In this document: in pieces, positions 13,314 through 31,245 of the stretch
How positions within the stretch are numbered: position 1 is the first letter of the stretch
Layout of the letters: each line of letters begins with the position of its first letter
Assembly: GCF_000737865.1 (NCBI RefSeq)
Contig: NZ_CP007287.1
Location: 1,682,972 to 1,746,971 of the forward strand
Length of the DNA: 64,000 nucleotides
Direction: 5' to 3'
From: Bifidobacterium coryneforme
GTDB taxonomy: Bacteria; Actinomycetota; Actinomycetes; Actinomycetales; Bifidobacteriaceae
Program-made: the position numbers and the translations under genes
Notes under the pieces: generated by a model
The model's input: only the letters and a program-made list of their open reading frames with translations
Told to the model about the DNA's origin: nothing
The model's database searches: none

Positions 13314-13934
13314 CTACTGGGAAATCGAGGCCTCCTGCCGGGCCAGGTCCAGAGCCTTGTTGAAGGCATCCGAGGTCCAGCTGGCACCAGCCACCTTGCT
13401 GACCTTGAGATCCTTGAGGGGTCTGCCCTCGACCACCCCGGGCACGGCCTTGGCGAACTCATCGATGTGCTTTTTGGAGACCGGGGAATCGGACTTCCCG
13501 GAGACCCTGACCGATTGCACGGTGCCGCCCGACACATCCAGGTCGACATCGATGCTGTCGGAACCATCCTTGCCGTAATGGCCCGTCAAGGCATATGACC
13601 CGTCCTGATACTGCCCGGTATCGGAAGCGGCAGGCTGCCTTCCATCCCGCGAAGATGCACTGGGCACACCCTCACCGGCCTGAGGTCCCTGTGCCTCTCC
13701 GTTACCGGGAGCGCTGCTGGACTCATTGCCCGCATACTCATCGTCCATGGGCTTGGTATCGGTCTGGCCGCACCCACCCAGGAGGGAGGCGGCCGCGACC
13801 AGACCCACCAGGGTGGCCGAAATCCCGGTCAGCCCATGTGACCTGGAAGATCCGGCCTGGGCCCCGGTGAATCCGGTTGCATCGTCCGCGGCCCGGGATT
13901 CCCTGTTGATTCCATCCCGCTTATCATCCTTCAT
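13314..13934 (-). CDS. FMN-binding-domain lipoprotein (last gene of P19-type iron operon)
   Basis: A 206-residue lipoprotein. An N-terminal charged segment precedes the hydrophobic stretch LVGLVAAASLLGGC, where LLGGC is the lipobox. A Ser/Gly/Glu-rich linker follows, then a C-terminal FMN_bind domain (about residues 120-206: YQDGSYALTG to the end). The covalent-FMN site is probably AGASWTS; ApbE usually uses Thr in such S/T-G-A-T motifs and here Ser takes that place. The ATG at 13934 follows GGAGGT. It is 19 bases after the ATPase gene. By position it may act as an extracytoplasmic electron carrier for iron reduction, where Campylobacter clusters carry thioredoxin-like proteins. An ApbE gene lies at 30.2-31.2 kb. 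Confidence 0.85.
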   Translation of the reverse strand: MKDDKRDGINRESRAADDATGFTGAQAGSSRSHGLTGISATLVGLVAAASLLGGCGQTDTKPMDDEYAGNESSSAPGNGEAQGPQAGEGVPSASSRDGRQPAASDTGQYQDGSYALTGHYGKDGSDSIDVDLDVSGGTVQSVRVSGKSDSPVSKKHIDEFAKAVPGVVEGRPLKDLKVSKVAGASWTSDAFNKALDLARQEASISQ

Positions 13935-13953
13935 GGGGACCTCCATCATCTGC

Positions 13954-14802
13954 TCAGTCGATCCGATTCCCGCCGCCGGTCTTGGCCGCCTTGGTCGGAT
14001 CCCGAAATCCGACAGGAACGTCACCCGACTGAGCCTCCTTGTCGGCACTGCCACTGAAAGCCGGCCTGCCGCCAATCTCCTCATAGGCCCGTCGGGCATC
14101 CTCGTCGTTCCATTGTTCACCCACCAGAACACCATGGTTGAGCATAATCTCACGTTGCGCACAGGAAGCCACCAGGGCATCGTGGGTCACGACAACCAGG
14201 GAGGTCCCCTGGTCATGCAGCTGCCGGAACAGATCCAGCACGATCTTCTCGTTGGCCTCGTCCAGGTTACCGGTCGGCTCGTCGGCCAGAATCAGCTTGG
14301 GCTCGTTGATCAGAGCGCGGGCCACGCAGACGCGCTGTTGTTCCCCGCCTGAAAGCTGACCGGGTAGGTGCTTAGCCCTGTCGGCCAGACCGACCCGGTC
14401 CAGGGCCTGCATGGCCTGGTCCTCGTCAACCACCGAGTGGTAGTACTGGGCCACCATCACGTTCTCGACGGCCGTCAGGTGAGGCACCAGATAGAACTTC
14501 TGGAAGACCAACCCAATCACGTTCTTACGCACATCCGCCAATTGGGAAGGGTTCAGGTCCTCCAGAGGGCGCCCCTCCAACCGGACCGACCCCGCAGAAG
14601 GGGTATCCATGCATCCCAGGATGTTCATCAGGGTGGTCTTGCCTGATCCTGACGACCCCACGACGGCCAGCCATTGCCCCTGGGGGATACTCAGGTTCAG
14701 GTCATCCAGCGCGTGCAGGTCGCCATAGATCTTGGATACGTGGTCCAGATCGAGGAGCATGCTTCCGCCTTTTCCCTGCCGGACCTCTTCTTGTTCCTTC
14801 AT
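13954..14802 (-). CDS. ABC transporter ATPase, MacB/LolD type (P19 iron operon)
   Basis: A 282-residue ATPase of the MacB/LolD/FtsE subfamily: Walker A GSSGSGKTT, signature LSGGEQQRVCVARAL, Walker B LILADEPTGNLD and H-loop VVTHD. A C-terminal extension of about 50 hydrophilic residues follows the core. The ATG at 14802 has GGGAGG 8 bases upstream; the open frame upstream overlaps the permease gene and is not conserved. It starts 2 bases after the preceding permease stop (14805), so it is tightly coupled. It should energise the two MacB-like permeases, a mechanotransmission rather than an import-channel architecture. Confidence 0.92.
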   Translation of the reverse strand: MKEQEEVRQGKGGSMLLDLDHVSKIYGDLHALDDLNLSIPQGQWLAVVGSSGSGKTTLMNILGCMDTPSAGSVRLEGRPLEDLNPSQLADVRKNVIGLVFQKFYLVPHLTAVENVMVAQYYHSVVDEDQAMQALDRVGLADRAKHLPGQLSGGEQQRVCVARALINEPKLILADEPTGNLDEANEKIVLDLFRQLHDQGTSLVVVTHDALVASCAQREIMLNHGVLVGEQWNDEDARRAYEEIGGRPAFSGSADKEAQSGDVPVGFRDPTKAAKTGGGNRID

Positions 14803-14804
14803 GA

Positions 14805-16301
14805 TTATTCCTCCCTGAGAACCAGTGCCGGGTCGATGCGTGACGCCCTGTGCACAGGCCGGATGGATGCGACTACCGATATGACGATGCTGAGCAGGAC
14901 CGAGGTCAGGGCCAGCCACCAGCTGAAGCCCAGCGAGCGCTGGAAGACGGAGGTGCAGAGCAGCCGGGCGAACAGGTATCCCAGTGCGGTACCGATCAGC
15001 CCGCCCAGGAACCCATACAGGGCGGACTCTGCGTAGAACTCCGCCCCAATGCTGCCTGATGAGGCTCCCAGGGCCTTGCGCAGACCGATTTCACTGCGTC
15101 TCTGGGAGACGATGGAGGCCATGGTGGTGCCTACCCCCACGAAGGTCAGCACCAGGACGACGATTGAGACCAGCCAGAAGAGGGTCTGGAGCATGGTGAT
15201 GGTGTGGGTGTCGCCGGAGGTGATTCTGGCCACCGTCCGTGCCGTAACCCCCATGCTGGTCATTTCATTGATGCTCTTGGCTATTGCCGACAGATCCGGC
15301 CCCATGGCATCGACCGAGTACTCGATGACATCGGACCCTCGTTTGGCTCCGGTCAGCGCTTCCATGTCATGCAGACTGGCGTAGATGATCTGATCCTCGG
15401 AACCGCCGGTATCAACGATGCCGCCCACCCGAAGTTCCATACCCGACTCTTGGGCATCCTTGGCGATGGACTCGTCAACCGGGGCTTGAGACCCCTGCTG
15501 CGCCAGGCTCTGGGCCTGGGCCTCCCTATTGCCGGGAGAATTCCCCGCCTGGGCCTGCTCATTCGATTGACCCGAATTGTCGGGCATCCCGGCCATGCCG
15601 TGCATGTGCCCGGACCCGCCGGAAGAAGCTCCTGAGGCGGAATGGATCTCCGCCTGCGCGTCGGCAGTCTGCTGGGCATCGGACTGTTCAGCCCCGGAGG
15701 CAGTGCCCGCGACGGGAGCATCATCGGTGTTGTCCGAAGCCCTGTAGCTGACGGTAATCCTGCTGCCCGGTTTCAGTCCCAGTGCATCCGCCAGATCACG
15801 CCCCACCATGACGGAACCGACCTTGGGCCACTCCCCGTCCACATTCCAGTGGTGGTTGAGCTGGCGCACCTGCTCGGCATCAATCCCTGCCATCATGTGC
15901 GATCCAGCGTTGACCCTGACCGATTCGTACCGGTAGGTGGCATGCCTGGCCGGCGCCTTGGCCGTGACCATCTCCGTGGTGTGGCTGACCATGCCCGGCT
16001 CGATGCCCTGCCGAGACTGGCCTGCCTGCTGGATGGGAGTCACCACCAGGTTGGCTCCGTAGGCCCGCATTTCCTGATTCATCTGCCTGGGAACCTCCAG
16101 GCAGACGGCCGCCAGGCAGAACAGGGTGGCCGCCCCGACCATGGAGGCCACCACCGCCATGGATGCCCTGCTGCGCCGCCGGAACACCGCCCCGAAGAGC
16201 ATGGTCAGGAACATACGGGTGTTGGTCATTGGTGCGTGACGGTGGGCCGACCTACCTGATTGGTCTGTCATTCCACCCCCCTGCTTGGAATCATCTGCCA
16301 T
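14805..16301 (-). CDS. MacB/FtsX-type ABC permease with Met/His-rich insert
   Basis: A 498-residue permease with one membrane segment near residues 46-68, a large extracytoplasmic domain, and three membrane segments at the C-terminus (from VSIVVLVLTFVGVGTTMASI), the FtsX/MacB layout. The cytoplasmic motif SQRRSEIGLRKALGA is seen. The external domain has an unusual insert of about 85 residues (roughly 195-280), rich in Ala, Gln, Ser and Gly, with GHMHGMAGM, a possible metal-binding cluster. The ATG at 16301 follows GGAGGT and overlaps the preceding permease stop by 11 bases. The gene corresponds in order to the second permease of the Campylobacter P19 cluster. Confidence 0.9.
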   Translation of the reverse strand: MADDSKQGGGMTDQSGRSAHRHAPMTNTRMFLTMLFGAVFRRRSRASMAVVASMVGAATLFCLAAVCLEVPRQMNQEMRAYGANLVVTPIQQAGQSRQGIEPGMVSHTTEMVTAKAPARHATYRYESVRVNAGSHMMAGIDAEQVRQLNHHWNVDGEWPKVGSVMVGRDLADALGLKPGSRITVSYRASDNTDDAPVAGTASGAEQSDAQQTADAQAEIHSASGASSGGSGHMHGMAGMPDNSGQSNEQAQAGNSPGNREAQAQSLAQQGSQAPVDESIAKDAQESGMELRVGGIVDTGGSEDQIIYASLHDMEALTGAKRGSDVIEYSVDAMGPDLSAIAKSINEMTSMGVTARTVARITSGDTHTITMLQTLFWLVSIVVLVLTFVGVGTTMASIVSQRRSEIGLRKALGASSGSIGAEFYAESALYGFLGGLIGTALGYLFARLLCTSVFQRSLGFSWWLALTSVLLSIVISVVASIRPVHRASRIDPALVLREE

Positions 16302-17610
16302 GGAGCACCTCCGCCGGTCGAAGTCTCAGAATGGAACGTATGGATGAAATGGATGCCACCAGCACGGTCAGGGCCAGAAGAACGAAGACCAGGACAAAGA
16401 CCATGGGCCGCATGGTGATGCCCGAACCAAAGACGACGTGACCGACAATCTGCGCGACCCCGGACCCCAGCAGGGCGCCGACCACGGCTCCGATCAGGCT
16501 GATCAGGGCCGTCTCGGCCAGGACCAGCCGTGAGACAGCACCGTCGGTGGCCCCCAGGACCTTGAGCAGGGCAAACTCCGATGATCGCTCGGAAATGGAG
16601 GCGGCCATCAGATTGGCCACGGCGATGGCAGCAGCCAGGAGGCTCAGGATGGTCATCAGAATCATGACGGCCTGGGTCTTCTGGAGTACGTCACCCTGGA
16701 GGGCCGCCACCTGGCGAACCTGTTTGGCCACAGCCCCCGGTATGGCCTCCTCAATCTGGTAGGCGATGGCCGACGGATAGGCCGTGCAGTACCAGGTCTC
16801 CCACTCGTCCTGGGAGAGGGCGGCCGGATTACGGGCGGCCTTCCTTGCCAGGTCATTCTCGGGGGTCGTCAGGGCCTTGACCTCCACCCTGTCCACCTGG
16901 TCGGGCAGTCCGGAGACCTTCTGCAAGGCCCAAGTCGGCACGTACAGGGCTGAGGAGTCGGAATCGCCTGAATCGAAGATGCCGACAATCCTGACCTGTT
17001 GGGTCTGTCCATCCATCTTCAAGCCAACGGTATCGCCAATCCGCTTACCGCCCAACCGGGCCGCCAGATCCTTGCCAATCATGCCCTGAGCCGGGTCCCC
17101 GGTCAAGGAGTCACGCCCGTCCTCGGGCCACGAACCCTCAACCTTCCACCAGGACCGGAGTCCCCTGACTCCGACCGTGGTGCTCTCGCCGCTGTCCAGG
17201 TGGATGTCCTTTCTGAACCAGGTCCCCACCACGGGGGCCTCGACCCCGTCCACACCCGCCTTGATGTCGAGCTGCGGGGCAAAGTCGGTGATGTTGTAGG
17301 CCCAGAAGATGGTCTTGATCTTCGGTACGTCGGATTCCTTCAGGTATGAGGCGGGGCGGGAGGACTGCTCCTGACTCGCCTGGTTCGCCTGGGAACCGTA
17401 TAGGTCGGAGACCACCGCATCGGACTTGGGCTGCACGATGATGTTGGACCCATAGGTGGAGAGTTCGGCATTAAGCTTGTCGCCCACGTCGAAGACGACC
17501 CCCAGCATGGCGACGGCCACGCAGGCGGAAAGGCAGACGGTCACGGCTATGAGGATTCTTCTGCCGAACTGGCGGCTGAAGGACCTGACAATCATTCGAA
17601 TCAGAAACAT
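16291..17610 (-). CDS. MacB/FtsX-type ABC permease
   Basis: A 439-residue permease with an N-terminal membrane segment (about 18-42), an extracytoplasmic MacB-PCD-like domain and three C-terminal membrane segments. The motif SERSSEFALLKVLGATDGAV marks the coupling helix. GAGGAGGTG lies upstream of the ATG at 17610; a second ATG occurs five codons later. It is 15 bases after the DUF2318 gene and overlaps the next permease by 11 bases. Together with the following permease and ATPase it forms the ABC part of the P19-type ferrous iron system, whose transported substrate is not settled in any organism I know. Confidence 0.9.
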   Translation of the reverse strand: MFLIRMIVRSFSRQFGRRILIAVTVCLSACVAVAMLGVVFDVGDKLNAELSTYGSNIIVQPKSDAVVSDLYGSQANQASQEQSSRPASYLKESDVPKIKTIFWAYNITDFAPQLDIKAGVDGVEAPVVGTWFRKDIHLDSGESTTVGVRGLRSWWKVEGSWPEDGRDSLTGDPAQGMIGKDLAARLGGKRIGDTVGLKMDGQTQQVRIVGIFDSGDSDSSALYVPTWALQKVSGLPDQVDRVEVKALTTPENDLARKAARNPAALSQDEWETWYCTAYPSAIAYQIEEAIPGAVAKQVRQVAALQGDVLQKTQAVMILMTILSLLAAAIAVANLMAASISERSSEFALLKVLGATDGAVSRLVLAETALISLIGAVVGALLGSGVAQIVGHVVFGSGITMRPMVFVLVFVLLALTVLVASISSIRSILRLRPAEVLHGR

Positions 17611-17625
17611 GCCGACAGCACCTCC

Positions 17626-18900
17626 TCAGCTCTTGAAGTGTGAGGACAGGGCATCCAGATCGGCGGTCTGGATCAGAATGCTGCCGTGCCCGGTGGTATA
17701 GGGCAATGGAATCGGATTGCACCCACCCTTGAAGCCGATGGTGGCCAGGTTGATGGCCACATCGCACTTCTTGCAGATGATCTTGCCATCCTTTTCGTAA
17801 TACCCGGCATCACCGCAGTTCTCGCAGGCATCCAGCCCGATTCCGTAAGCCGCCCCGTTCTTCTTGATGATGATGAACCGCATGACCGTGCCGTCCTTGG
17901 CCTTGTACTGGAAGCGGTGCAGGTGCCCATCGCTGACCTGGGAGAACTTGATGGTCGCCGTCTCCTTGGATAGGGAGTAATCCTCGGGCGGCGAAAGCAC
18001 AGGCACCTTGTGGGCCTGGGCCGTGCCCACGGTCAGGGCCAGGGTAACGAAGATCATCGCCACCAGGCTCCAGACGGATGAGGCCAGGGCTCGCCGACGG
18101 AAGGCCTTGTGCTGCCTGCTCACTGATGCGGTCTGCCCCTCCACAGGCATGCGGAATCCCGCAACCATGCAGACTACGGCGGGAATCACGAAGACACAGA
18201 CCTGGACGATGACCATGGCCTGGTTGGCGTTATAGAGCAGGGCCATAATCCTGAAGGGGAGACCATGCAGGATGAGCTCTCCGGTGTTCTGCAACAGGGC
18301 CAGCAACCCGGTGCCATGTTGAATCAGGGTCAGCACGACCACAAGAAGGGCAGCCAGTGAAAACGCCTTATGGGAACAGGTCCGATGCATGGATCGGAAG
18401 ATGGCCGCCACGATGACGACTGTTGCTATGGCCAGGACGAAACCGAGCGCCCGAAGCAGCATTTCGGAGGTGAATACGGGAGAATTGGGCTCCACAAAAG
18501 CCGTCAGTTGGAGAATCACATCAGGCAAGGCCCTGAAGACACTGAGGGCGATGGCAAGGGCAGCCAGGCCGTTGGCCAGGTTCAGAGAGGCCCTGTGGTC
18601 ATGCCAATCACTGGTCAGCCTCCCGGCTGCCAGCACCACCCAGATCAGGGCCAGATCGGCTATGACACAGGCTATCAGGGTGGGGAAATTGACCATACTG
18701 CGTCGGTTGATGACCGCGGTGGCCCTGAGTGCCGCAAATACGATGGCCGCCAGGGTGCCCACACCCAGCCCGACCAGACGCCAGGAGGACGACAGGGGCT
18801 TGTCTCGCCCCTCACCAACGGTCAGTAGCACGCTGAGGACCATGACCAGGAGGGCCGGCCCGAGCGTTCCCGGCAGGACCGCGACGAATTGCTCAAGCAT
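17626..18900 (-). CDS. DUF2318 membrane protein (FtrD-like) of the iron operon
   Basis: A 424-residue protein with about eight to nine membrane segments through residue 300, then an extracytoplasmic DUF2318 domain. The domain contains CENCGDAGYY and ICKKCDVAIN, two Cys-x-x-Cys pairs, and a further Cys in GGCNPIPLP, consistent with bound metal or an Fe-S/heme-type redox site. In P19/Ftr clusters this protein is proposed to move electrons to or from the iron-binding protein. AAAGGCAGG precedes the ATG. A 183-base gap with a strong hairpin separates it from P19 upstream, and it lies 15 bases from the permease downstream. Confidence 0.9.
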   Translation of the reverse strand: MLEQFVAVLPGTLGPALLVMVLSVLLTVGEGRDKPLSSSWRLVGLGVGTLAAIVFAALRATAVINRRSMVNFPTLIACVIADLALIWVVLAAGRLTSDWHDHRASLNLANGLAALAIALSVFRALPDVILQLTAFVEPNSPVFTSEMLLRALGFVLAIATVVIVAAIFRSMHRTCSHKAFSLAALLVVVLTLIQHGTGLLALLQNTGELILHGLPFRIMALLYNANQAMVIVQVCVFVIPAVVCMVAGFRMPVEGQTASVSRQHKAFRRRALASSVWSLVAMIFVTLALTVGTAQAHKVPVLSPPEDYSLSKETATIKFSQVSDGHLHRFQYKAKDGTVMRFIIIKKNGAAYGIGLDACENCGDAGYYEKDGKIICKKCDVAINLATIGFKGGCNPIPLPYTTGHGSILIQTADLDALSSHFKS

Positions 18901-18972
18901 CTTGCCTGCCTTTCACGTACATTCTGCGCATGGCGGTGACCAGCACCCACCCGACCATGCTAATCGCACGAA

Positions 18973-19017
18973 GCGGCATACAGGGCCCAATCAATCCTCG
19001 CTGCGCCCGTATGCCGC
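18973..19017 (-). terminator. Intra-operon hairpin between P19 and DUF2318 genes
   Basis: GCGGCATAC and GTATGCCGC pair perfectly, extended by GGGC/GCCC, forming a 13-bp interrupted stem. There is no U-run after it on the minus strand, so it may be an mRNA processing or stability element or a partial terminator that lets P19 be made in excess over the membrane components. Confidence 0.5.
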
Positions 19018-19083
19018 CTTCCGCTTTTCAGGCCGGTCGAACTGCACCCCATTGCCGGGGCTCAGATCGACCCAGCCCTCATA

Positions 19084-19722
19084 TCACCACTGGTGAGGCG
19101 TGTAGTCCCAATCCCAGCTGACCACGATGGGCTCGGTCCAGAAGTGGTCCTTGACCCCGGTCTCGGGATCGACGTGGAGCATCCACCCCTTCTTTTCGGG
19201 GGACTCGATGGAGTAGGTCAGCTTGTAGGATCCAGCCTTGTCCATCTTGATGTTGGCACCGTAGTGAGGGCCGTCCGAGGCATTCATCTGCATGAAGGTG
19301 CCGGACTGCTTGTCGTTGGGGTCGTTCTTGTTCTCAATCGTGTAGTTGACGGTCAGGTCGGGAACGAACTCACCCTTGGCATAGCCCAGGTTGTTGTCGG
19401 CCAGGGCATGGATATCGGCTTCCAGGTGAAGGCTGGCATCCGCTGCCTTGAGGCCCATGGAGGCAGGCTCCATATCGATGGGCTGGAAGAAGACGGTGCC
19501 GATGTTCAGCGGTCCCTTCTGCTGATCATCGGGCGGAATCGGAATCTCTTCAAATCCTGCGCCCTTGCTGTCTTCCTTGTCGCCTTCCGACTTGGAATTG
19601 GCGGTTGTATCGGGGGCGGGGGCTTCCTTGGCCCCCTCGTTCTTGCCCCCACCGCAACCGGCCAGGACCAGTGTTCCGGAGAGCACCAGGGCAGCCAGGG
19701 CTGCGAATTTCCTCTTCTTCAT
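19084..19722 (-). CDS. P19/Tp34-family iron-binding lipoprotein
   Basis: A 212-residue lipoprotein with signal peptide and lipobox (LVLAGC, Cys 23), a Gly/Glu/Asp linker and a P19 (iron transporter) domain. Candidate metal ligands seen include Glu and Met in DMEPASMG, His in ADIHALAD, Met in MQMNASD and His in GPHYGANI. P19 homologues bind copper and iron in a dimeric immunoglobulin-like fold and hand iron to the FTR1 permease. A Trp/His-rich tail (SWDWDYTPHQW) ends the protein. It is 81 bases downstream of the FTR1 gene and has AAAGGAAAG upstream of its ATG. Confidence 0.92.
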   Translation of the reverse strand: MKKRKFAALAALVLSGTLVLAGCGGGKNEGAKEAPAPDTTANSKSEGDKEDSKGAGFEEIPIPPDDQQKGPLNIGTVFFQPIDMEPASMGLKAADASLHLEADIHALADNNLGYAKGEFVPDLTVNYTIENKNDPNDKQSGTFMQMNASDGPHYGANIKMDKAGSYKLTYSIESPEKKGWMLHVDPETGVKDHFWTEPIVVSWDWDYTPHQW

Positions 19723-19803
19723 TTTCTTTCCTTTGTTCGTTCGGTTTCTGACTGTCTCATTGGCATGAGTCTTGTATGTGCCGGGCAGGTCGCGGCAAGG
19801 GCC

Positions 19804-21522
19804 TCAGTCGTCCTGATCGGACTGCCGGACCGACTCCTTCCGGTTCTTCCTGATAATCGAAATGACGGCGAAGACAATGACCACAACCAGTGCCAGGACC
19901 TGGGCACCGATGGACTGCACATAGGGATAAAGCCCTATCCAGTCGCTGGTCGGCACGCCCGGCAGGTAGGTGGCCGGCACCAGATCGCCCTCAATCAGGG
20001 CGTGGACACCGCCGCCCGCGAAGATGACCACCATGATGGCCATCAAGGCACTGGTGATGACGAAGAAGGGCCTGATGGGTATCTTGACCGAGGTGAACCG
20101 AATCAGGACAAAGATGATGACCAGCACCACAGCAGCAGCTGCAAATCCGGTCCATATCTCCTTGCTGCCGCTGGGAGCCATGGCGAAGATGGCCTGGTAG
20201 AACATGACCGTTTCAGCTCCCTCCCTGAAGACGGCCAGGAAGGAGAGAAGGGCCAGGGATATGACACTGCCCTGGGATATGGCGGTCACGGTCTTGTTCT
20301 TGATGTACCTGTTCCAGGAGTCCACCGAGGATTTGGAGAGCATCCAGTTGCTGGTATAGAGCAGCATGACCATGGCAACCAGGGCGACCACGCCTTCCAG
20401 AATCTCCTGCTCAGGACCGTTTCCGTTGAAGAGGAGGGTGAAGAGGATGGCCACCAGGCCGCTCCCGGCCAGACCGGCAAGGATGCCCCAGTATATGTAT
20501 CGAATCTTGCTCTTGTAACCGGACTTGACCAGGTAGGCGATGATGGCGGCCACAACCAGGATGGCCTCAAGACCCTCACGGAGGAGAACAATGAAGGCCT
20601 GACCGAAGGCCGAGGTCAGGAAGGTGGTCCATTTGTTGACGCTGTCGGCCGCCCCTCCATCCAGGATGCCCGCATCAGTGACCAGCATTCCCTTGAGGTC
20701 GTCAACCAACCCCTTGACCTTCTTCGGTGACTCCCCGCCGACCATGGCCATGCGGGTTTCCTTGAACTGGTACTCCACCTGCGAGACCCGGCTACCGCCG
20801 ATGGCGTTCATGACGTTCTTCTCGAAGCCCAGCTTTTCGTAATACTGGTAGTAGGCCTTGTTGACCAGATCGGAGCCCTCCTGACCCCTGCCATCGGCCG
20901 CTGCCCTGTAGGCCTGGTCCAGGATGGGAGTCATCTCACCGGCCACCTGGGTCCAGGTCTTGTCGCCCTTGCCCTTGTTCTTGTGCTTCTTGGCGGCATC
21001 CAGACGTTTCCGGTCCGCCTTGATCTGCTCCTCCTGGGCCTTGGCATACTGCCTCGGCTTGGCCAGCGAACCATTGGCGTCGAGCTGGGCGGCAGTATCG
21101 GCCAAATCGGCTTTCAGGGCCTGCGTATCCTGATCGATCCGCCCTTGGTTGCCTGGTGCATAGGCCTGTGACTGGAGGGATTGGAACCGCTGATCCAGAT
21201 TGGAACGACGGTCCTGCCCCAATGTGGAGGCCGTGGCCGTTACAAAATTGGAAGCCACATACACAGAGTTGTAGGCCGCCATGAAGTCCGAGGCTGCACC
21301 CGCATTATCACCACGGGCGTAGGCTTCACGTCCGGAATCCAGTTCCTCGGCCATGGCTGTGGACACATCGGTCCAGGTGTCATAGCCAGAGGCCTTGTCG
21401 GCGGCAAGAGCTGTGTGAACAGGAAGAAGGCCGGAAGCGGATACGGCCAGGACAGTCAGCAGGCAGGCCAGGAGGGAACCCGTTACTGCCAAGGCTTGTT
21501 TTGCCATGGCTTTAAGACGCAT
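19804..21522 (-). CDS. FTR1-family high-affinity iron permease
   Basis: A 572-residue protein with a signal peptide, an extracytoplasmic helical domain of about 280 residues and a C-terminal FTR1 domain with seven membrane segments. Both iron-transfer motifs are intact: REGLEAILVV and FREGAETVMF (REXXE type). The N-terminal domain plausibly docks P19. The ATG at 21522 is preceded by GGGAGGG; the frame continues upstream without support. It is the first gene of the seven-gene iron operon. The upstream region (21523-21754) is AT-richer, with runs of A/T at 21626-21650 suitable for a promoter. I could not find a convincing DtxR or Fur box by eye. Confidence 0.93.
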   Translation of the reverse strand: MRLKAMAKQALAVTGSLLACLLTVLAVSASGLLPVHTALAADKASGYDTWTDVSTAMAEELDSGREAYARGDNAGAASDFMAAYNSVYVASNFVTATASTLGQDRRSNLDQRFQSLQSQAYAPGNQGRIDQDTQALKADLADTAAQLDANGSLAKPRQYAKAQEEQIKADRKRLDAAKKHKNKGKGDKTWTQVAGEMTPILDQAYRAAADGRGQEGSDLVNKAYYQYYEKLGFEKNVMNAIGGSRVSQVEYQFKETRMAMVGGESPKKVKGLVDDLKGMLVTDAGILDGGAADSVNKWTTFLTSAFGQAFIVLLREGLEAILVVAAIIAYLVKSGYKSKIRYIYWGILAGLAGSGLVAILFTLLFNGNGPEQEILEGVVALVAMVMLLYTSNWMLSKSSVDSWNRYIKNKTVTAISQGSVISLALLSFLAVFREGAETVMFYQAIFAMAPSGSKEIWTGFAAAAVVLVIIFVLIRFTSVKIPIRPFFVITSALMAIMVVIFAGGGVHALIEGDLVPATYLPGVPTSDWIGLYPYVQSIGAQVLALVVVIVFAVISIIRKNRKESVRQSDQDD

Positions 21523-21754
21523 AACAGGTCCCTCCCTCAACAGTCCCCCGGCGTACATCACGCCATGTCTGCAAACCGCTGCGCTCTCTTGGTATCAAAG
21601 AGCAAATCTAGTGCACGGCAGCCTGAAAAAACAGACTTGATTTTTATGAGTTTCCCTACTAAGCAACGCCGGGACCAGCCAATAGGGCTCTTCCTGTCCT
21701 CTGCCCGGGCGGGGCCGTCGGCGCGGCTCCGACCCAACCGGTCACCCCTGGGTT

Positions 21755-23251
21755 TCAGCCTGCGACCCCGACCGCGTTCCGATGCTTCCACAGGCAGATG
21801 CCGCCAAAGACCGCCAGCCAGCATAGGCCGAAGATGGCGGGGATTCGGGTATCGGGGGCAAAGAAGAGGGAGACGTAGATCACCAGGAAGAAGATGATGG
21901 CTATGGGGCCGGTCACCTTGTAGGCGGGCATGAGGAACCCGTCGGGCATGAAGTCGTCGCTGGCTCGATACCTGTGATGGGCCAGGAGGGTCAGGATGTA
22001 GATGAAGATGATGACCGCGCTGGATGCCGAAGTGAAGAGGACGAAGGTGTTCTCAAAACCGGGCAGGGCGTGGAGGATTGGCGAGAGCAGGATCAGGACG
22101 CCGGAGAGGATGATGGCCCTGGCTGGCACCCTGCCCCGGCGGGAGATTGTGTACAGGCTCCGCATGAGAGGCGATCCGCCTCCTGCCGCCAGCTGGAACA
22201 GGTTACGCCCGGCAGAATAGAGCAGGGAATTCAGGGAGGAGCAGGCTGCCGTGATAACCACGAAGAAGACCAGGCCCGCCGCCCAGTCCACGCCCGCGTA
22301 TCTGAAGACCATGACGAAAGGCGAGGCGAAGGTCCCGTCGGCGTTGGGCTTGAAGGAGCGCCAGGGCACGATCATCATGATGGCCATCAGGGCGCCGACG
22401 TAGAAGATGAGAACGCGGATGATGATCTGGTTGATGGCCTTGGGAAGGACCTTGCGCGGGTTCTGGGTCTCGGAGACCGTAACTCCCACGAACTCGATCA
22501 TCTCGTAGGCGAAGAAGACCATCTGGAAACTCATGAAGAAGGCCAACCACCCATTTGGTGCCAGGGAGAGCCCGTTGAGTATGTTATCCAGACCGGCGTG
22601 GCCTGCGGGGCTGACCTGGTCCAGACCGGGCATCTGCACGGCCGGGTAGCGGAATCCGACGATGACCATGACCACGGCGGTGACAATCATGGCAAGAATC
22701 AGGGTGATCTTGATCATTGAGAACCAGAACTCGGTCTCGCCGAAGACCTTGACGGCAATCAGGTTGACGGAGACCATGGCCGCCAGGAAGCAGACCTCGA
22801 TCAGGCCGCGCCAGGCCTCAAGGTTGATACCGAAGGTGCCGAAGAAGGTCACGAAGTACGTACCCACGGCCGTCAGTTCCGACATGCCTATCAGAATCAG
22901 CACGATCCAGTAGGACCAACCGGCGAAGGACCCCCAGCCCTTGCCCAGGTAGCGGGTGATGAAGGCGATGAAGGTGTGTTGGTTGGGGCTGCGATACATG
23001 AGTTCGCCAATGGCCCGCATGAGCAGATACATGACCAGGCCCACGCCGATATAGACCAGGATGATCGAAGGGCCGGTCAGGGCGATGGACTTACCCGACC
23101 CGAGAAAGAGACCCGTTCCGATTGTGCCGCCAATGGCGATGAACTGCACATGGCGGTTGCTCAATCCACGCTCCATCTGATTGGATGGATCGCGGGATCC
23201 GTCCGCACCCTGTTCGGTACCGGAGGTCTGCGTATTCCCGGCTTGCCCCAT
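21755..23251 (-). CDS. Amino-acid permease, APC superfamily (AAT family)
   Basis: A 498-residue permease with 12 membrane segments. The family opening is RHVQFIAIGGTIGTGLFLGS near residue 34, and AYEMIEFVGVTVSETQNPRK marks the conserved segment after TM6. Gram-positive relatives carry D-serine/D-alanine/glycine (CycA-like) or GABA/proline. AGGAGG lies 8 bases before the ATG at 23251, better than ATGs at 23278 or 23287. It is divergent from another APC permease, with a palindrome in the spacer. The exact substrate is not determinable. Confidence 0.88.
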   Translation of the reverse strand: MGQAGNTQTSGTEQGADGSRDPSNQMERGLSNRHVQFIAIGGTIGTGLFLGSGKSIALTGPSIILVYIGVGLVMYLLMRAIGELMYRSPNQHTFIAFITRYLGKGWGSFAGWSYWIVLILIGMSELTAVGTYFVTFFGTFGINLEAWRGLIEVCFLAAMVSVNLIAVKVFGETEFWFSMIKITLILAMIVTAVVMVIVGFRYPAVQMPGLDQVSPAGHAGLDNILNGLSLAPNGWLAFFMSFQMVFFAYEMIEFVGVTVSETQNPRKVLPKAINQIIIRVLIFYVGALMAIMMIVPWRSFKPNADGTFASPFVMVFRYAGVDWAAGLVFFVVITAACSSLNSLLYSAGRNLFQLAAGGGSPLMRSLYTISRRGRVPARAIILSGVLILLSPILHALPGFENTFVLFTSASSAVIIFIYILTLLAHHRYRASDDFMPDGFLMPAYKVTGPIAIIFFLVIYVSLFFAPDTRIPAIFGLCWLAVFGGICLWKHRNAVGVAG

Positions 23252-23583
23252 CGGTTCCACCTCCTCTTCCTTCTTCATCGACCACATCGCCGAACATCAG
23301 CGCGTCGGTCCTTATCGGTACCGCAGGTGCAGCGTTGAGAATCACTTCCGGCATTCGAATCGAGCGCCCAACGTGGACCGCATCCTTGCACACACATACC
23401 GGTATTGTTGCGCGCCGATTGCTTACCAGTGAACGGCATGACCACAAATCACAAGCCTTCCGTTCCACTATGCAAACACAGCACCGACCGGGGCAACCCT
23501 CGACATATACGGTGGGCGCGTCAGTAAGCACCGGTACGCTGACGGCTACCAATGGCTTCATAGCTAAGGAACGGCGACCAGAC
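23252..23583. other. Divergent spacer between two amino-acid permeases
   Basis: This 332-base spacer must hold both promoters. It contains the perfect 10-base palindrome ATACCGGTAT at 23396-23405 and a shorter CGGTACCG near 23316, either of which could be a regulator site. No gene or RNA is evident. Confidence 0.4.
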
Positions 23584-25074
23584 ATGACTCAGACCCCACC
23601 CCCAGCGCAGACGGATACGCCGGCAACCCCGCAGGAGGGAGCCCTGCGCAGAACCCTGAAAAACCGCCATATTCAACTCATATCGCTGGGCGGGGCCATC
23701 GGCACCGGACTCTTCTATGGTTCGGGAGAATCCATATCCCTGGCAGGCCCGGCCATCATCATCGCCTATCTGATTGGCGGTTGGGCCATCTTCATGATCG
23801 TCCGAGCCCTGAGCGAGATGAGCGTGGAGGACCCCAAATCCGGCGCCTTCAGTTACTATGCCACCCGTTACTGGTCCAAGAGGGCCGGATTCATATCGGG
23901 GTGGAACTACTGGCTGAACTACGTCCTGGTTTCCATGGTGGAGCTCTCCGTGGTGGGTTCCTTCGTCAACTTCTGGTTCCCGTCCATCCCCGCCTGGGTT
24001 TCCGCCGCCTTCTTCCTGGTGGTCATCACGGCCGCCAACCTGATGGGGGTCAGCAAGTTCGGCGAGTTCGAGTTCTGGTTCGCCATCATCAAGATCGCGG
24101 CCATCATCGCCATGATTGTCGGCGGCCTGGCCGTGGTCATCCTGGCCCTGCCCACAGCAGGCGGTCTCAAGGCATCCTTCTCGAACTGGTTCACCGTCGG
24201 TGGAGGATTCCTCCCCAACGGACTGATGCAGCGGGGGTCCGACGGGCAATGGACCGGCCTTCTCATGGCCCTGGCCGTGGTCATGTTCAGTTTCGGCGGC
24301 ACCGAGCTGCTCGGCATCACCGCCGGAGAAACGGCGGACCCCCGCAAGACCATCCCCAGGGCCACAAACGCCGTCGTTTGGAGAATACTGGTCTTCTACA
24401 TCCTTACTCTCGGCGTCATCATGGCCGTCGTTCCCTGGAACGCCATCGGCAAGCCCAACGCTCAAGGAATGGTAGTCAGCCCCTTTGTGCAGATCTTCGA
24501 TTCGGTGGGCATCCACGCCGCTGCCGGTATCCTGAACTTCGTCTGCCTGACGGCCGTCATGAGCGTCTACAACTCGGCCCTATACTCCAACTCCCGCATG
24601 CTTTACTCCCTGGCGAAGCAGGGCAATGCACCACGATATCTGGGCCGGCTCTCCAAGGGCGGGGTGCCCTATGCCGGCGTTCTGACCTCGGCCTGCGTCA
24701 TCGCCCTGGCCGTTGTGGTGGTCTTCCTCTGGCCCCGGTTCGCCTTCAACTACCTGATGAGCGTGGCCACCATCGCCGCCATGCTCAACTGGGCCATCAT
24801 CATGCTGACCGAGATGCACTTCCGTAAGGCCGTCGCCGAAGGGTGCGGACCGGGCGAACTTGCCGGCAGGACCGGGAAAGACGCCCTGGATGCCCTCCAT
24901 TTCAAGCTCCCCTGGGCCCGGGTGACCCCCTGGATGGTCTTGGCTTTCATGGCGCTCGTGGTGGTGCTCATGTGCTTCTCGCCCAGCTACCGACCAGCGG
25001 TCATCGCCGGCCCCATCTGGCTGGCCATACTCCTGGCGGCCTACCAGCTGACCCATCGGCACCAACACAGGTGA
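23584..25074 (+). CDS. Amino-acid permease, APC superfamily (AAT family)
   Basis: A 496-residue permease with 12 membrane segments. The opening is NRHIQLISLGGAIGTGLFYG, and GGTELLGITAGETADPRKTI follows TM6. It is most like the AnsP/GabP/ProY branch. The ATG at 23584 gives the family length although the closest purine-rich sequence (AAGGA) is some 13 bases away; the frame is open upstream to 23185 without conservation. It has different codon and residue details from the two LysP-like paralogues that follow, so it is not a recent duplicate of them. Its substrate is unknown. Confidence 0.87.
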   Translation: MTQTPPPAQTDTPATPQEGALRRTLKNRHIQLISLGGAIGTGLFYGSGESISLAGPAIIIAYLIGGWAIFMIVRALSEMSVEDPKSGAFSYYATRYWSKRAGFISGWNYWLNYVLVSMVELSVVGSFVNFWFPSIPAWVSAAFFLVVITAANLMGVSKFGEFEFWFAIIKIAAIIAMIVGGLAVVILALPTAGGLKASFSNWFTVGGGFLPNGLMQRGSDGQWTGLLMALAVVMFSFGGTELLGITAGETADPRKTIPRATNAVVWRILVFYILTLGVIMAVVPWNAIGKPNAQGMVVSPFVQIFDSVGIHAAAGILNFVCLTAVMSVYNSALYSNSRMLYSLAKQGNAPRYLGRLSKGGVPYAGVLTSACVIALAVVVVFLWPRFAFNYLMSVATIAAMLNWAIIMLTEMHFRKAVAEGCGPGELAGRTGKDALDALHFKLPWARVTPWMVLAFMALVVVLMCFSPSYRPAVIAGPIWLAILLAAYQLTHRHQHR

Positions 25075-25148
25075 GGTATCGGTCCCGTAAAGATCCGAGG
25101 CCGGATAAGGGGGGTACGGACTCTTGTCAGAGAAGTGCTCTAGGCTGT

Positions 25149-25346
25149 CCTGTAATCACAAGTCACTGAAGAGGTGCCGAGCCTAACAGTAACCGAGGTC
25201 AGACAGTGTGGTGTCGACGACCCTCGGCGAAAGGAGGCTCGGCCGAAGCGGCCCGGTCCTACACGACCGGCTCGCTGGGTCCGGGTTGAAGAAGCCCGGG
25301 ACTGTCGCAGCTTGATGCTGCGGAGCGCTATGGACCTTGTTACAGG
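25149..25346 (+). ncRNA. Lysine riboswitch (L box)
   Basis: All five helices of the lysine aptamer can be traced. P1: CCTGTAA (25149-25155) with TTACAGG (25340-25346). P2: GCCGAGCC (25176-25183) with GGCTCGGC (25236-25243), with an upper arm CCGAGGTC/GACCCTCGG. P3: CCGGTC/GACCGG (25253-25270). P4: CCGGGTT/AGCCCGG (25281-25299). P5: CGCAGC/GCTGCG (25306-25322). Core sequences AGAGGTGC, GGCGAAAGGAGG, GCCGAAG and GGAGCGCTATGG match the consensus. It lies about 95 bases before a permease start, identifying that gene as a lysine importer repressed by lysine. Confidence 0.93.
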
Positions 25347-25441
25347 CTGATTGCCTCATGAGATTCCGCCGGAACGATTGCGGAACCATACGGAAGCCAT
25401 CGCCATGGCGCCCTCAGACCATGTCGAGGAGAGATAAGGCT
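25347..25441 (+). promoter_or_regulatory. Likely expression platform of the lysine riboswitch
   Basis: Downstream of P1 there is TTCCGC/GCGGAA (6-bp stem) and a CCCTC segment that could pair with the GAGGAG ribosome site of the permease gene. There is no clear U-run terminator, so translational control is favoured. This is inferred by eye only. Confidence 0.4.
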
Positions 25442-26956
25442 ATGGCGACCAGCAGGGTCGGGCACGAGAGCCCGTCCACGAAGCGTAAAGCTGCACAGGG
25501 CAAAGGGAATCAGGTACAGCGCAACCTGAAGACACGGCACGTTTCCATGATTGCCCTGGGTGGCTGTATCGGCACCGGGCTCTTCATGACCTCCGGATCC
25601 ACCATCTCCAAGGCAGGACCAGGCGGCGGACTGGTCGCCTACGCAGCCATGGGCCTCATGGTCTACTTCCTGATGACCAGCCTCGGCGAACTGGCCACCC
25701 ACATGCCCGTCTCCGGCTCCTTCGCCACCTACGACGCCAAGTACGTGGACCCCGCCCTGGGATTTGCCATGGGATGGAACTACTGGCTGAACTGGGCCAT
25801 CACCGTGGCTGTGGACATCTCCACCGCGGCCTTGCTGATCCAGTACTGGCTACCGGACACCCCGGGCTGGGTTTGGAGCCTCCTGGTGCTGGTGGTCATC
25901 TTCCTGATCAATGCCCTCACCGTATCGACGTTCGGGGAAACGGAGTTCTGGCTCTCCCTGATCAAGGTCCTTACGGTCATCGTCTTCCTGGTCATCGGCT
26001 TCGCCATGATTCTCGGCATCATGTACCGCCCGGCCGCAGGACTGCACAACTTCACCTACAAGGACGCCCCCTTCGTCGGGGGATTCCCGGCCATACTCAG
26101 CGTTTTCCTGGTTGCGGGCTTCTCCTTCCAGGGCACCGAGCTGATCGGGGTCACCGCCGGCGAGTCCGAAGATCCCAGCCATGCCGTCCCCAAGGCCATC
26201 CGGGATGTGTTCTGGCGGATTCTCCTCTTCTATATCCTCTCCATCTTCGTCATCGCGGCCCTGATCCCCTACACCAGCCCCCACCTCCTCGGAGCATCAG
26301 AAGGCAACATCGCCATGTCACCCTTCACCCTGGTCTTCCAACGGGCAGGACTCGCCTCAGCAGCCAGCATCATGAACGCCATCGTGCTGACCTCCGTGCT
26401 CTCCGCAGCCAACTCCGGGGCATACGCAGCGACCCGTATGCTCTATGCCCTGGCGCACGAGCACTATGCACCGCGCATATTCGGCAGGACGACCCGTCAC
26501 GGCATTCCCCTGATGGCCCTGGCTGCCACAACGGTGGTCTCCCTGGCGACCTTCGCCTCAAGCATCTTCGGCCAGCGCATCTACATGTGGCTGGTGGCGG
26601 CCTCCGGTCTGACCGGATTCATCGCCTGGATCGGCATAGCCCTGAGCCACTACCGCTTCCGCAGGGCCTGGGTGGTCCAAGGGCACAAGGTCAGTGAACT
26701 CAAATATCACGCCAAGCTCTTCCCCCTAGGGCCCATCCTCGCCTTGGTGCTCTGCCTTGTGGTCATCGGGGGGCAGAACATCGAGGCCTTCGTCACATGG
26801 AACTGGCAGGAAATCGGAGTCACCTACATCAGCATCCCCCTGGTCCTGGCGCTCTACCTGGGATACAAAATCAAGCACCACACCAAGATTGTGCCCCTGG
26901 ACCAGATGGACCTGACCTCCTCTTCACCCGAGTTCGAATCCCGAACGGGGGCCTGA
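25442..26956 (+). CDS. lysP: Lysine-specific permease
   Basis: A 504-residue APC transporter with 12 membrane segments importing lysine with protons. It has MIALGGCIGTGLFMTSG, TM3 GELATHMPVSGSFATY, and FQGTELIGVTAGESEDP after TM6, all typical of LysP. The lysine riboswitch in its leader gives independent support for the substrate. The ATG at 25442 follows GAGGAGA; an ATG at 25421 is an alternative. It is followed 272 bases later by a paralogue with long DNA tracts of near identity (25547-25731, 26207-26380 and 26609-26662). The first 25 residues are basic and differ from the paralogue. Confidence 0.9.
   Translation: MATSRVGHESPSTKRKAAQGKGNQVQRNLKTRHVSMIALGGCIGTGLFMTSGSTISKAGPGGGLVAYAAMGLMVYFLMTSLGELATHMPVSGSFATYDAKYVDPALGFAMGWNYWLNWAITVAVDISTAALLIQYWLPDTPGWVWSLLVLVVIFLINALTVSTFGETEFWLSLIKVLTVIVFLVIGFAMILGIMYRPAAGLHNFTYKDAPFVGGFPAILSVFLVAGFSFQGTELIGVTAGESEDPSHAVPKAIRDVFWRILLFYILSIFVIAALIPYTSPHLLGASEGNIAMSPFTLVFQRAGLASAASIMNAIVLTSVLSAANSGAYAATRMLYALAHEHYAPRIFGRTTRHGIPLMALAATTVVSLATFASSIFGQRIYMWLVAASGLTGFIAWIGIALSHYRFRRAWVVQGHKVSELKYHAKLFPLGPILALVLCLVVIGGQNIEAFVTWNWQEIGVTYISIPLVLALYLGYKIKHHTKIVPLDQMDLTSSSPEFESRTGA
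25547..25731 (+). repeat. 185-bp exact duplicate tract shared by two permease genes (copy 1; copy 2 at 27310-27494)
   Basis: Bases 25547-25731 read identically to 27310-27494, while flanking codons differ at many positions. A second tract, 26207-26380 against 27970-28143, has one mismatch (26258/28021), and a third, 26609-26662 against 28372-28425, is exact. Patchy identity in colinear paralogues is the usual mark of gene conversion. Confidence 0.9.
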
Positions 26957-27228
26957 TTCCCGACCACCCACGACAGCGACCGGGACACACTGCCTAGTAG
27001 ACTGATGGATCATTGGGGCAACCACCCCCATCAGCATCCCCACCGATTCCATAGTGCCCACAAGGCGAGCGATTCGGAAGGGCGCGGGTGACATCCATAT
27101 CAGGGACCGGCCAGACGGATAATCCGACCAGCCTGAACCCTCCCCGACGGCGAGCGGGAAGGGTGGGCGCAGAATAATCAGCACTCGGTTTACGGGCATG
27201 CGGCCTATAGACCCGAAAGGGAGACGGA

Positions 27229-28701
27229 ATGTCTTCAGATGATAAGGGCAAGGGGACCGGACAGTCCCAGGGCATGGTCAAGCGCAATCTGAAGACCCGC
27301 CATATATCGATGATTGCCCTGGGTGGCTGTATCGGCACCGGGCTCTTCATGACCTCCGGATCCACCATCTCCAAGGCAGGACCAGGCGGCGGACTGGTCG
27401 CCTACGCAGCCATGGGCCTCATGGTCTACTTCCTGATGACCAGCCTCGGCGAACTGGCCACCCACATGCCCGTCTCCGGCTCCTTCGCCACCTATAGCGC
27501 CCGGTATGTGGACCCCGCCCTAGGCTTCGCCATGGGCTGGGACTACTGGCTGAACTGGACCATCTCCGGAGCTGTTGACATTTCGACCGCCGCGCTCCTG
27601 ATTCAGTACTGGCTGCCCGATACACCGGGCTGGATCTGGAGCCTCCTGGTCCTGGTCGTCGTCTTCCTCATCAACGCCCTGGCCGTCTCGGCCTTCGGGG
27701 AGACGGAATTCTGGCTCTCCCTGATCAAGGTCGCCACCATCATCGTCTTCCTGGTCATCGGCTTCGCCATGATTCTCGGCATCATGTTCCAGCCTGCTGT
27801 GGGCCTGCACAACTTCACCTACAAGGATGCCCCCTTCGTGGGCGGCTTCCCCGCGATCATGGGCGTCTTCCTGATAGCCGGATACTCTTTCCAGGGCACC
27901 GAGGTGGTGGGGGTCACCGCCGGCGAATCGGAGGACCCCGGCAAGGCTGTTCCCAAGGCCATAAACGAGGTGTTCTGGCGGATTCTCCTCTTCTATATCC
28001 TCTCCATCTTCGTCATCGCGTCCCTGATCCCCTACACCAGCCCCCACCTCCTCGGAGCATCAGAAGGCAACATCGCCATGTCACCCTTCACCCTGGTCTT
28101 CCAACGGGCAGGACTCGCCTCAGCAGCCAGCATCATGAACGCCGTGGTCCTGACCTCCATCCTCTCGGCCGTCAACACGGGCGCCTATGCCTCAAGCCGC
28201 ATGCTCTACGGACTGGCCAAGGACCACTACGCCCCCAGGATCTTTGCCAGGACCACCAGGCGGGGCATTCCCATGGCCGCCCTTGTGGCCACCGTCTGCA
28301 TGTCCCTGGCCACCTTCGCCTCCAGCATCTTCGGGCAGACCTTCTATATGTGGCTGGTGACGGCAACGGGCCTGACCGGATTCATCGCCTGGATCGGCAT
28401 AGCCCTGAGCCACTACCGCTTCCGCCGGGCGTTCAAACTGCAAGGGCATGATTTGAGCGAGCTCAAGTACCACTCCAAGCTCTACCCTCTGGGTCCCATC
28501 CTGGCAATGGTGCTCTGCCTGGTCGTCATTGCCGGGCAGGACATCCCCTCCATGGCCAGCCTGGACTGGTCGCACCTGGGCATGACCTACTTCAGTGTGG
28601 TTCTGGTCCTTGCGCTCTACCTGGGCTACAAGTTCATCAACCACACCAAAATCGTCAAGCTGGCGGACATGGACCTTTCAGGGGCCGGATCCGCCGACTG
28701 A
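27229..28701 (+). CDS. LysP-like basic/amino-acid permease, paralogue of lysP
   Basis: A 490-residue APC permease, colinear without gaps with the preceding lysP over most of its length (constant offset 1763 bases). It shares MIALGGCIGTGLFMTSG and FQGTEVVGVTAGESEDP and the same TM3 motif. AAGGGAG precedes the ATG at good spacing. Its leader (26957-27228) does not contain the lysine aptamer, so it is regulated differently and may prefer another substrate or serve as a lysine permease under other conditions. It ends just before a terminator shared with ilvC. Confidence 0.88.
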   Translation: MSSDDKGKGTGQSQGMVKRNLKTRHISMIALGGCIGTGLFMTSGSTISKAGPGGGLVAYAAMGLMVYFLMTSLGELATHMPVSGSFATYSARYVDPALGFAMGWDYWLNWTISGAVDISTAALLIQYWLPDTPGWIWSLLVLVVVFLINALAVSAFGETEFWLSLIKVATIIVFLVIGFAMILGIMFQPAVGLHNFTYKDAPFVGGFPAIMGVFLIAGYSFQGTEVVGVTAGESEDPGKAVPKAINEVFWRILLFYILSIFVIASLIPYTSPHLLGASEGNIAMSPFTLVFQRAGLASAASIMNAVVLTSILSAVNTGAYASSRMLYGLAKDHYAPRIFARTTRRGIPMAALVATVCMSLATFASSIFGQTFYMWLVTATGLTGFIAWIGIALSHYRFRRAFKLQGHDLSELKYHSKLYPLGPILAMVLCLVVIAGQDIPSMASLDWSHLGMTYFSVVLVLALYLGYKFINHTKIVKLADMDLSGAGSAD

Positions 28702-30198: not shown

Positions 30199-31245
30199 TC
30201 ACCCCACGAAAAATGCGCCTGGGAATCCTTTGGAAACCACGGCATGACGGGAATCATCGAGCCCGGCACAGGCAAAAGGGAACCGTTCAGCCAGACCATT
30301 GGGTCCAACCAGGAAGAGGGCCGTGGATAAACCGTCCGCCAGCGCGGTCGGATACAGTTTCGCCAGGCGATTATCCCGGGGGTCGCCCAGTTCCTGACCT
30401 TGATTCCCCGAACGGTCCTCCTGCCCCACCACCACCACCCAGGTGGCCTTGACACGGCGGACAGGCATACCATCGACAGCGTTGAGGATATGGTGGAGGG
30501 CCATCAGCCCCTCCTCCTCATCGCCCCCTCGGGGGACGGTCCATTTCCGCCTGCTGGGGGCCGAGGCGCCAAGAGAACCGGTTGTCATCCTGATGACTCC
30601 GACCGCCCTGGTCAGGTCATCGGGATCCTCCATGGCAATGGAGACCGCTCCAGGGGCCTGGATACGCATATCACCCCCGGCATCAATCAGGTAGTCTCCC
30701 ACACCTTCGGCATCGTCGGTCCGGTTGAGCACATCAGCCAGGAGGTCCACCAGGTACCCCTTGCCCAGGGCTCCAAAGTCCAGCTGAACCGGCCCCCTGG
30801 TCCGCAGAATCACACCATCGCGCTCAACATCATCCCCCCAGGTGGACCTGCCCTTGATTCGCCCGAGATGGTCGACCGCATCAGCGCTCAAGCGGAAGGT
30901 CATATCCCTTCCATATCCCAACCGCGCAAGATCAGCTCCAACAGCCGGGTCCAGAGCACCCCCCGTGGCGAGGTACAGGCAATCGTAGAGGTCGAACAGG
31001 CCCTGGCAGTATTCGGGGAACCGGAAATTGCCGCCCCGCTTCGCTCGGGCCATGTCCGCCAGGATGGAATCATCCCGAAACCTGGACAGGGATGATTCAT
31101 AGGTGTCAATCAGCCGCCCCAGTCCGGCACGGAGCTCAGACCCGACCGGCTTGGAGGTATTGATGATGATGCCGGTTCCCAGCGCTTCGGGAAAGGCTGT
31201 CGAATAGGGCATGGAGGCAGGTCCCGTTCCTGGACTCGGGTGCAT
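30199..31245 (-). CDS. apbE: FAD:protein FMN transferase
   Basis: A 348-residue ApbE-family enzyme that attaches FMN covalently to Thr/Ser of extracytoplasmic flavoproteins. The family signature LDFGALGKGYLVDLLADVL and the following DAGGDMRIQ are clear, as is ATGGALDPAVG. The C-terminal metal-binding segment is represented by LYPTALADGLSTALF. The ATG at 31245 has GGAGGGGG upstream, better than the ATG at 31212. No obvious lipobox is present, so the protein may be cytoplasmic or exported by an unrecognised route. The plausible in-window client is the FMN_bind lipoprotein at 13.3-13.9 kb. It lies 58 bases after purA on the same strand. Confidence 0.9.
   Translation of the reverse strand: MHPSPGTGPASMPYSTAFPEALGTGIIINTSKPVGSELRAGLGRLIDTYESSLSRFRDDSILADMARAKRGGNFRFPEYCQGLFDLYDCLYLATGGALDPAVGADLARLGYGRDMTFRLSADAVDHLGRIKGRSTWGDDVERDGVILRTRGPVQLDFGALGKGYLVDLLADVLNRTDDAEGVGDYLIDAGGDMRIQAPGAVSIAMEDPDDLTRAVGVIRMTTGSLGASAPSRRKWTVPRGGDEEEGLMALHHILNAVDGMPVRRVKATWVVVVGQEDRSGNQGQELGDPRDNRLAKLYPTALADGLSTALFLVGPNGLAERFPFACAGLDDSRHAVVSKGFPGAFFVG

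Follow-up and report, generated by a model that had tools for sequence, protein, structure and literature searches.

A P19-type iron-uptake cluster of Bifidobacterium coryneforme with a predicted flavinylated lipoprotein at its end, and the ApbE that accompanies it

Introduction

How does an iron-uptake cluster of the P19 type handle iron redox outside the cell when it ends, not in thioredoxins, but in a flavin-binding lipoprotein? This question is raised by a stretch of 64,000 nucleotides (64 kb) from Bifidobacterium coryneforme (NCBI RefSeq assembly GCF_000737865.1, contig NZ_CP007287.1, positions 1,682,972 to 1,746,971), hereafter the window, within which all positions are counted. Seven genes follow each other there on the minus strand, from 21522 down to 13314, in the order FTR1, P19, DUF2318/FtrD, two FtsX permeases, an ATP-binding cassette (ABC) ATPase and a lipoprotein with a flavin mononucleotide (FMN)-binding domain, FMN_bind. 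An earlier note, made from the DNA sequence alone, had claimed this order and place, and both are borne out by Pfam. The cluster is the bfeUO-sifABCDE locus of Bifidobacterium (Fet/P19-type), already described and ordinary for the family. We argue that it is probably an iron-uptake system in which the terminal lipoprotein SifE, flavinylated by ApbE, supports extracytoplasmic iron redox (most likely Fe(III) reduction) together with the membrane protein SifA.

19804..21522, minus strand: bfeU, FTR1 iron permease (Pfam FTR1, 1.6e-39)
19084..19722, minus strand: bfeO, P19 iron-binding lipoprotein (Pfam Iron_transport, 1.8e-59; P19/FtrA relatives with solved structures)
17626..18900, minus strand: sifA, FtrD-like/DUF2318 membrane protein with five invariant cysteines (Pfam FtrD-like, 3.5e-31; conservation over 56 sequences)
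16291..17610, minus strand: sifB, FtsX/MacB-type permease (Pfam FtsX, 7.3e-16; MacB_PCD, 1.9e-12)
14805..16301, minus strand: sifC, FtsX-type permease (Pfam FtsX, 3e-21)
13954..14802, minus strand: sifD, ABC transporter ATPase (Pfam ABC_tran, 6.3e-35)
13314..13934, minus strand: sifE, predicted FMN_bind lipoprotein with the motif AGASWT (Pfam FMN_bind, 7.7e-4; 23.3 bits genome-wide; motif and lipobox cysteine in 53/53)

SifE, a lipoprotein with an invariant candidate flavin motif

The assignment that matters most is that of SifE, whose FMN_bind score is 20.5 bits in a single-protein search (under the Pfam cut-off of 22) and 23.3 bits, above it, in the genome search. It is nevertheless firm, because none of the 53 orthologs, window included, departs from the AGASWT motif or lacks the lipobox cysteine. 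The motif region aligns with the GAT of the solved domain 8p2a (a weak match, E 0.06 only), and the seven Actinomyces SifE proteins printed all read AGASKTS. Placement outside the cytosol is indicated by the lipobox and by a hydrophobic stretch ahead of it in all 53 proteins (15-residue mean hydropathy 1.77 to 2.55), as read without a signal-peptide program. The most likely start is the ATG at 13934, preceded by GGAGG and 19 bases past the ATPase stop. Profile searches of the whole genome, a single contig of 1,755,151 bases, found one FMN_bind match, SifE itself. In two genomes (G033 and G022) SifE is fused in frame with the ATPase; SifE and ATPase form one open frame at L046:9704-11101, which matches both ABC_tran and FMN_bind in Pfam, and at L048:10167-11951, a fusion that links the flavin domain with the transporter.

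What is already in print

This locus has a substantial literature. Lanigan 2017 (PMC5449479) named bfeUO-sifABCDE in B. breve UCC2003, described transposon mutants in all seven genes, annotated sifE as a 'possible ferric iron reductase, FMN binding domain' and, in its Table 5, gave 35 of 47 species as carriers of the cluster, among them B. coryneforme and B. indicum, with B. bohemicum and B. bombi lacking sifE. The window has the same genes in the same order as B. breve, with a similar iron operator. The BfeU proteins of B. indicum and B. coryneforme are 56% identical to that of B. breve (PMC5449479), and the window's P19 shares 100% identity with the P19 of Bifidobacterium [indicum] DSM 20214. 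Against NCBIfam, the bfeU product matches TIGR00145 (1.2e-36) and EfeU (2.8e-29), both under the family cut-offs.

The first six genes stand in the same order as in fetMP-fetABCDEF of Campylobacter jejuni (PMC6083913, PMC10783030), as the earlier note had recognised. The C. jejuni cluster ends in two thioredoxins, whereas in the window their place is taken by the FMN_bind lipoprotein; no thioredoxin gene stands at the end of the window's cluster, where the next gene past sifE is a convergent cyclopropane synthase, and the Campylobacter-type ending is thus not found. This contrast is itself published, since Liu 2018 (PMC6083913), comparing 33 species with B. kashiwanohense among them, reported that the seventh gene is a thioredoxin in most Proteobacteria and an FMN-binding protein in Actinobacteria, Firmicutes, Spirochaetes and Synergistetes, and proposed that either protein might provide reducing power outside the cytoplasm. 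In the count of Meheust 2021 (PMC8238504), P19 clusters that include an FMN_bind gene number 260, mostly Gram-positive, an association that the window shares. The novelty that the earlier note had seen in the redox idea does not hold, therefore: the arrangement, the contrast between thioredoxin and FMN and a possible ferric-reductase role are all in print (Lanigan 2017, Liu 2018, Meheust 2021). What is added here is modest, namely (i) the pairing of SifE with ApbE, (ii) their joint absence and (iii) the missing leader of ApbE. Among open-licence PubMed Central (PMC) papers, only Meheust 2021 surfaced for ApbE flavinylation in Bifidobacterium, and its main text never mentions bifidobacteria; for SifE with FMN in Bifidobacterium, only Lanigan 2017 surfaced.

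ApbE accompanies SifE across the family

The enzyme that would load SifE is encoded nearby.

30199..31212, minus strand: ApbE flavin transferase (Pfam ApbE, 1.7e-27; solved flavin adenine dinucleotide (FAD):protein FMN transferases as relatives; ~9 kb from the operon)

This is the only ApbE match found by profile search in the window's genome. The core residues D260, D271, D296, H356, D408 and T412 are present in 37/37 ApbE sequences and K266 in 36, residues that we take to be catalytic. The ~9 kb between apbE and the operon, upstream of which it lies, is a departure from B. breve; among 56 loci fetched, apbE adjoins FTR1 in 35, the two genes being divergent in 32 of these and co-directional in 3.

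Among 101 Bifidobacteriaceae genomes surveyed with Pfam profiles, P19 was found in 61, FMN_bind in 58 and ApbE in 62, with all three in 57, P19 alone in 3, P19 and ApbE in 1 (G041), FMN_bind alone in 1 (G077) and none in 35. In 56/57 genomes with both genes (the exception is G009), FMN_bind shares the strand of P19 and follows it 5.2-6.4 kb downstream, which bears on the gene order that the earlier note had wished to see surveyed. Joint absence is seen as well, since bifidobacterial protein alignments found no ApbE in G072, G085, G100 and G101 (B. aemilianum), all of which have the operon without SifE; matches to the SifE model in these four genomes are weak only (19 bits in G085 and 17.6 in G101) and fall within the first 53 model positions.

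Genetics in B. breve points the same way. There, bfeUO-sif mutants, sifE included, are chelator-sensitive, with a need for these genes under ferrous-iron chelation, and the apbE::Tn5 mutant is, like sifA-E mutants, sensitive to dipyridyl and phenanthroline and not to ciclopirox olamine, although its dipyridyl defect is milder than that of sif mutants (PMC5449479). The mutant was filed under iron-sulphur (Fe-S) repair by Lanigan 2017 (PMC5449479). The link to SifE re-reads it, and offers a one-gene test of the need for flavin in P19-type uptake.

A proposed role for a flavin and a cysteine domain in extracytoplasmic redox

In the mechanism that we favour, P19 would bind iron outside the cell and pass it to the FTR1 permease, ApbE would put covalent FMN on the AGASWT serine in the single FMN_bind domain of surface lipoprotein SifE, the SifE flavin and the SifA cysteine domain would together carry out extracytoplasmic iron redox, most likely Fe(III) reduction, and the ABC part, SifBCD, would move a substrate. 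We infer the covalent FMN on SifE, the direction of electron flow and the donor.

By gene context, the best candidate redox partner of SifE is SifA, whose five cysteines are conserved without exception in 56/56 sequences. A heme pair in SifA was considered and set aside, H199 (51/56) being the only histidine conserved at >=90% in the presumed membrane part. As for a transmembrane donor, NqrB/RnfD, DsbD, Ferric_reduct and Fer4_5, four of the carriers tied to flavinylation by Meheust 2021 (PMC8238504), gave no hit at E 0.001 when the window's genome was searched (PepSY was not searched).

Two suggestions of the earlier note can be judged from this. That extracytoplasmic flavin serves iron handling is supported by the predicted flavinylated lipoprotein, by the need for its B. 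breve ortholog under ferrous chelation and by the pairing with, and joint absence of, ApbE, whereas the direction of electron flow stays a proposal. That flavin replaces thiol-based redox stands as far as gene position goes, but sits badly with the invariant cysteines of SifA. Nor does a thioredoxin replace SifE in the four operons without SifE that were looked at, where the gene after the ATPase encodes a thiamine pyrophosphate (TPP) enzyme (L037), an RCC1-repeat protein on the other strand (L038) or an ABC-2 protein on the other strand (L039), and in L106 two opposite-strand genes follow, for a nucleoside hydrolase and a LacI regulator.

Points against, and alternative readings

Several observations weigh against a flavinylated SifE that reduces iron. 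Its motif opens with Ala (AGAS) and not with the usual Ser/Thr of [S/T]GA[S/T]; the acceptor Ser is present and invariant. The FetE/FetF proteins of C. jejuni may be oxidases (PMC10783030). The B. breve mntH mutant has part of the same chelator profile (PMC5449479), which, with the milder dipyridyl defect, leaves the apbE phenotype at the level of a suggestion. Judged by hydropathy and frame length (no signal-peptide program was run), the bifidobacterial ApbEs measured show no signal peptide or lipobox. Finally, the genes do not always travel together: ApbE occurs without P19 or FMN_bind (Pfam) in 4/101 genomes, the rest of the iron system persists without SifE in some species, and G077 has SifE but neither the operon nor a complete ApbE.

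The alternative that survives best, unlikely as it is, makes the SifE flavin an oxidant, on the ferroxidase or thiol oxidase side, that gives Fe(III) to FTR1 with no reduction of iron. FTR1 systems elsewhere pair with ferroxidases, and the four transmembrane electron carrier families lack a match in the window's genome; on the other hand, many bifidobacteria live without oxygen. The C. jejuni extracts suggesting that FetE/FetF are oxidases (PMC10783030) would fit, but in B. breve the sensitivity of sif mutants is to ferrous and not to ferric chelation (PMC5449479), which argues against it.

It is still less probable that the FMN_bind domain of SifE is unflavinylated, a structural or iron-chaperoning partner, and that ApbE serves another substrate. 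No second FMN_bind protein turned up in the window's genome, the acceptor Ser of SifE is invariant and ApbE is absent along with SifE in four P19 genomes, all of which is hard to square with such a role, even if the Ala at the first motif position, an ApbE that shows no leader while SifE is exported, the lineages that keep the remaining genes without SifE and the four genomes with ApbE but neither FMN_bind nor P19 would be readily accommodated.

Most improbable is a cytosolic ApbE devoted to Fe-S cluster repair and unrelated to SifE, the reading of the Lanigan 2017 authors (PMC5449479), which would suit a leaderless enzyme but has against it that ApbE presence and absence mostly track SifE, that apbE lies beside FTR1 in 35/56 fetched loci and that the apbC mutant (also Fe-S) is ciclopirox-sensitive where apbE and sif mutants are tolerant.

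An ApbE without a leader

If SifE is flavinylated, as we think probable, the topology of ApbE poses a question, because exported proteins usually receive their FMN on the outer side of the membrane (review PMC12052999). Upstream of the first conserved motif of ApbE, the 15-residue hydropathy has a maximum of 1.38 in the 34/37 bifidobacterial sequences measured, the other 3 having fewer than 15 residues there and hence no value, and in 12/37 a stop codon leaves <=30 residues upstream of that motif. By a second measure that includes the domain start, 1/36 ApbEs reaches 1.8 (1.94, in the domain's own first strand); of the 37, L086 was unparsed, and L040 was parsed but had no residues left to measure. 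Control ApbEs drawn phylum-wide (20/30 parsed, the 10 unparsed not being counted) have a hydrophobic stretch in 14/20, as does E. coli ApbE (1.99); with 6/20 lacking it, leaderless ApbEs occur elsewhere too. Eight Actinomyces ApbEs, judged by eye, show no such stretch either.

Cytosolic ApbEs are known, with a Klebsiella example that, as here, has no signal peptide and has a soluble fumarate reductase as substrate (review PMC12052999); its substrate is soluble, whereas the window's genome yielded a single FMN_bind protein, and that is a lipoprotein. The passages of Meheust 2021 (PMC8238504) consulted do not take up the case of a leaderless ApbE that acts on an exported protein. Three readings offer themselves: SifE receives its flavin before export, ApbE reaches the outside by some other route, or the target of ApbE is a different protein. 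A leaderless ApbE alongside a lipoprotein SifE makes attachment before export possible. We tentatively propose, as a conjecture somewhat more likely to fail than to hold, that in Bifidobacteriaceae and Actinomyces a leaderless ApbE flavinylates the surface lipoprotein in the cytosol, from which it would be exported flavinylated; ApbE would then be a maturation enzyme of iron uptake, and the B. breve apbE iron phenotype would reflect loss of the SifE flavin, not of Fe-S repair.

Transcription and iron control

The genes from sifA to sifE overlap or are 2 to 19 bases apart, and the gap between P19 and FtrD is 183 bases. Since B. breve transcribes bfeUO and sifABCDE separately, this gap makes it likely that the cluster in the window is two transcripts rather than one operon. 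In B. breve, reverse-transcription PCR defined these two units, and iron limitation induces the cluster (Lanigan 2017, PMC5449479). The earlier note had named a lack of co-transcription of the lipoprotein gene with the iron genes as refuting its idea; in B. breve, sifE is in the sifABCDE transcript, with bfeUO apart. An inverted repeat at ~19020-18971, seen by eye and without a T-run (the terminator listing is empty there), lies between the same two genes as the terminator that follows bfeO in B. breve.

21627..21644, minus strand: predicted iron operator, 2 mismatches to the published bifidobacterial operator (~105 bases upstream of FTR1)

This 18-base site, resembling the iron operator published for B. 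breve, is the sole match in the window, with 0 in 100 shuffles. Across 54 loci with sequence upstream of FTR1 (window included; L062 was dropped as too short), matches with <=4 mismatches occur upstream of FTR1 in 31, against 5/1080 in mononucleotide shuffles.

Variants of the locus

SifE is present as its own frame in 72/80 named loci, and the 8 others include L115 (Pseudoscardovia suis), whose contig is as long as that of L048, where SifE shares a frame with the ATPase. SifE is lacking in L105 (Bombiscardovia coagulans) and L106 (B. aemilianum), and in L114, L121, L164, L168 and L172 the sequence ends near or before its place. In a tree of FtrD, operons without SifE fall in two places: one is a clade (100/99) of L037/L105, L038 and L106, whose sister is the window's group, and the other is that of L039 (L037, L038 and L039 were flagged as long branches).

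Some single genomes deserve mention. The SifE of G041 was missed by Pfam and recovered from the locus and the SifE alignment. G009, which is 76% complete, has no SifE past the ATPase (L050); on another contig (L009:1282-2438), an FMN_bind lipoprotein with the usual TGAT motif stands, by eye, just before an FTR1-like frame, and seems to head the cluster there instead of ending it. In G077 (L041:6403-7145), SifE lies beside the 3' end of apbE (its last 45 model positions) and the remainder of the operon is missing, as if a deletion had left these pieces behind. At L086:3662-4348 a stop codon breaks P19, and the permease gene PermB of L043 (6276-7616) is split over two frames. In the window itself, upstream of the operon, 21755-28701 holds on both strands one amino-acid permease (Pfam) and three frames that are alike by eye.

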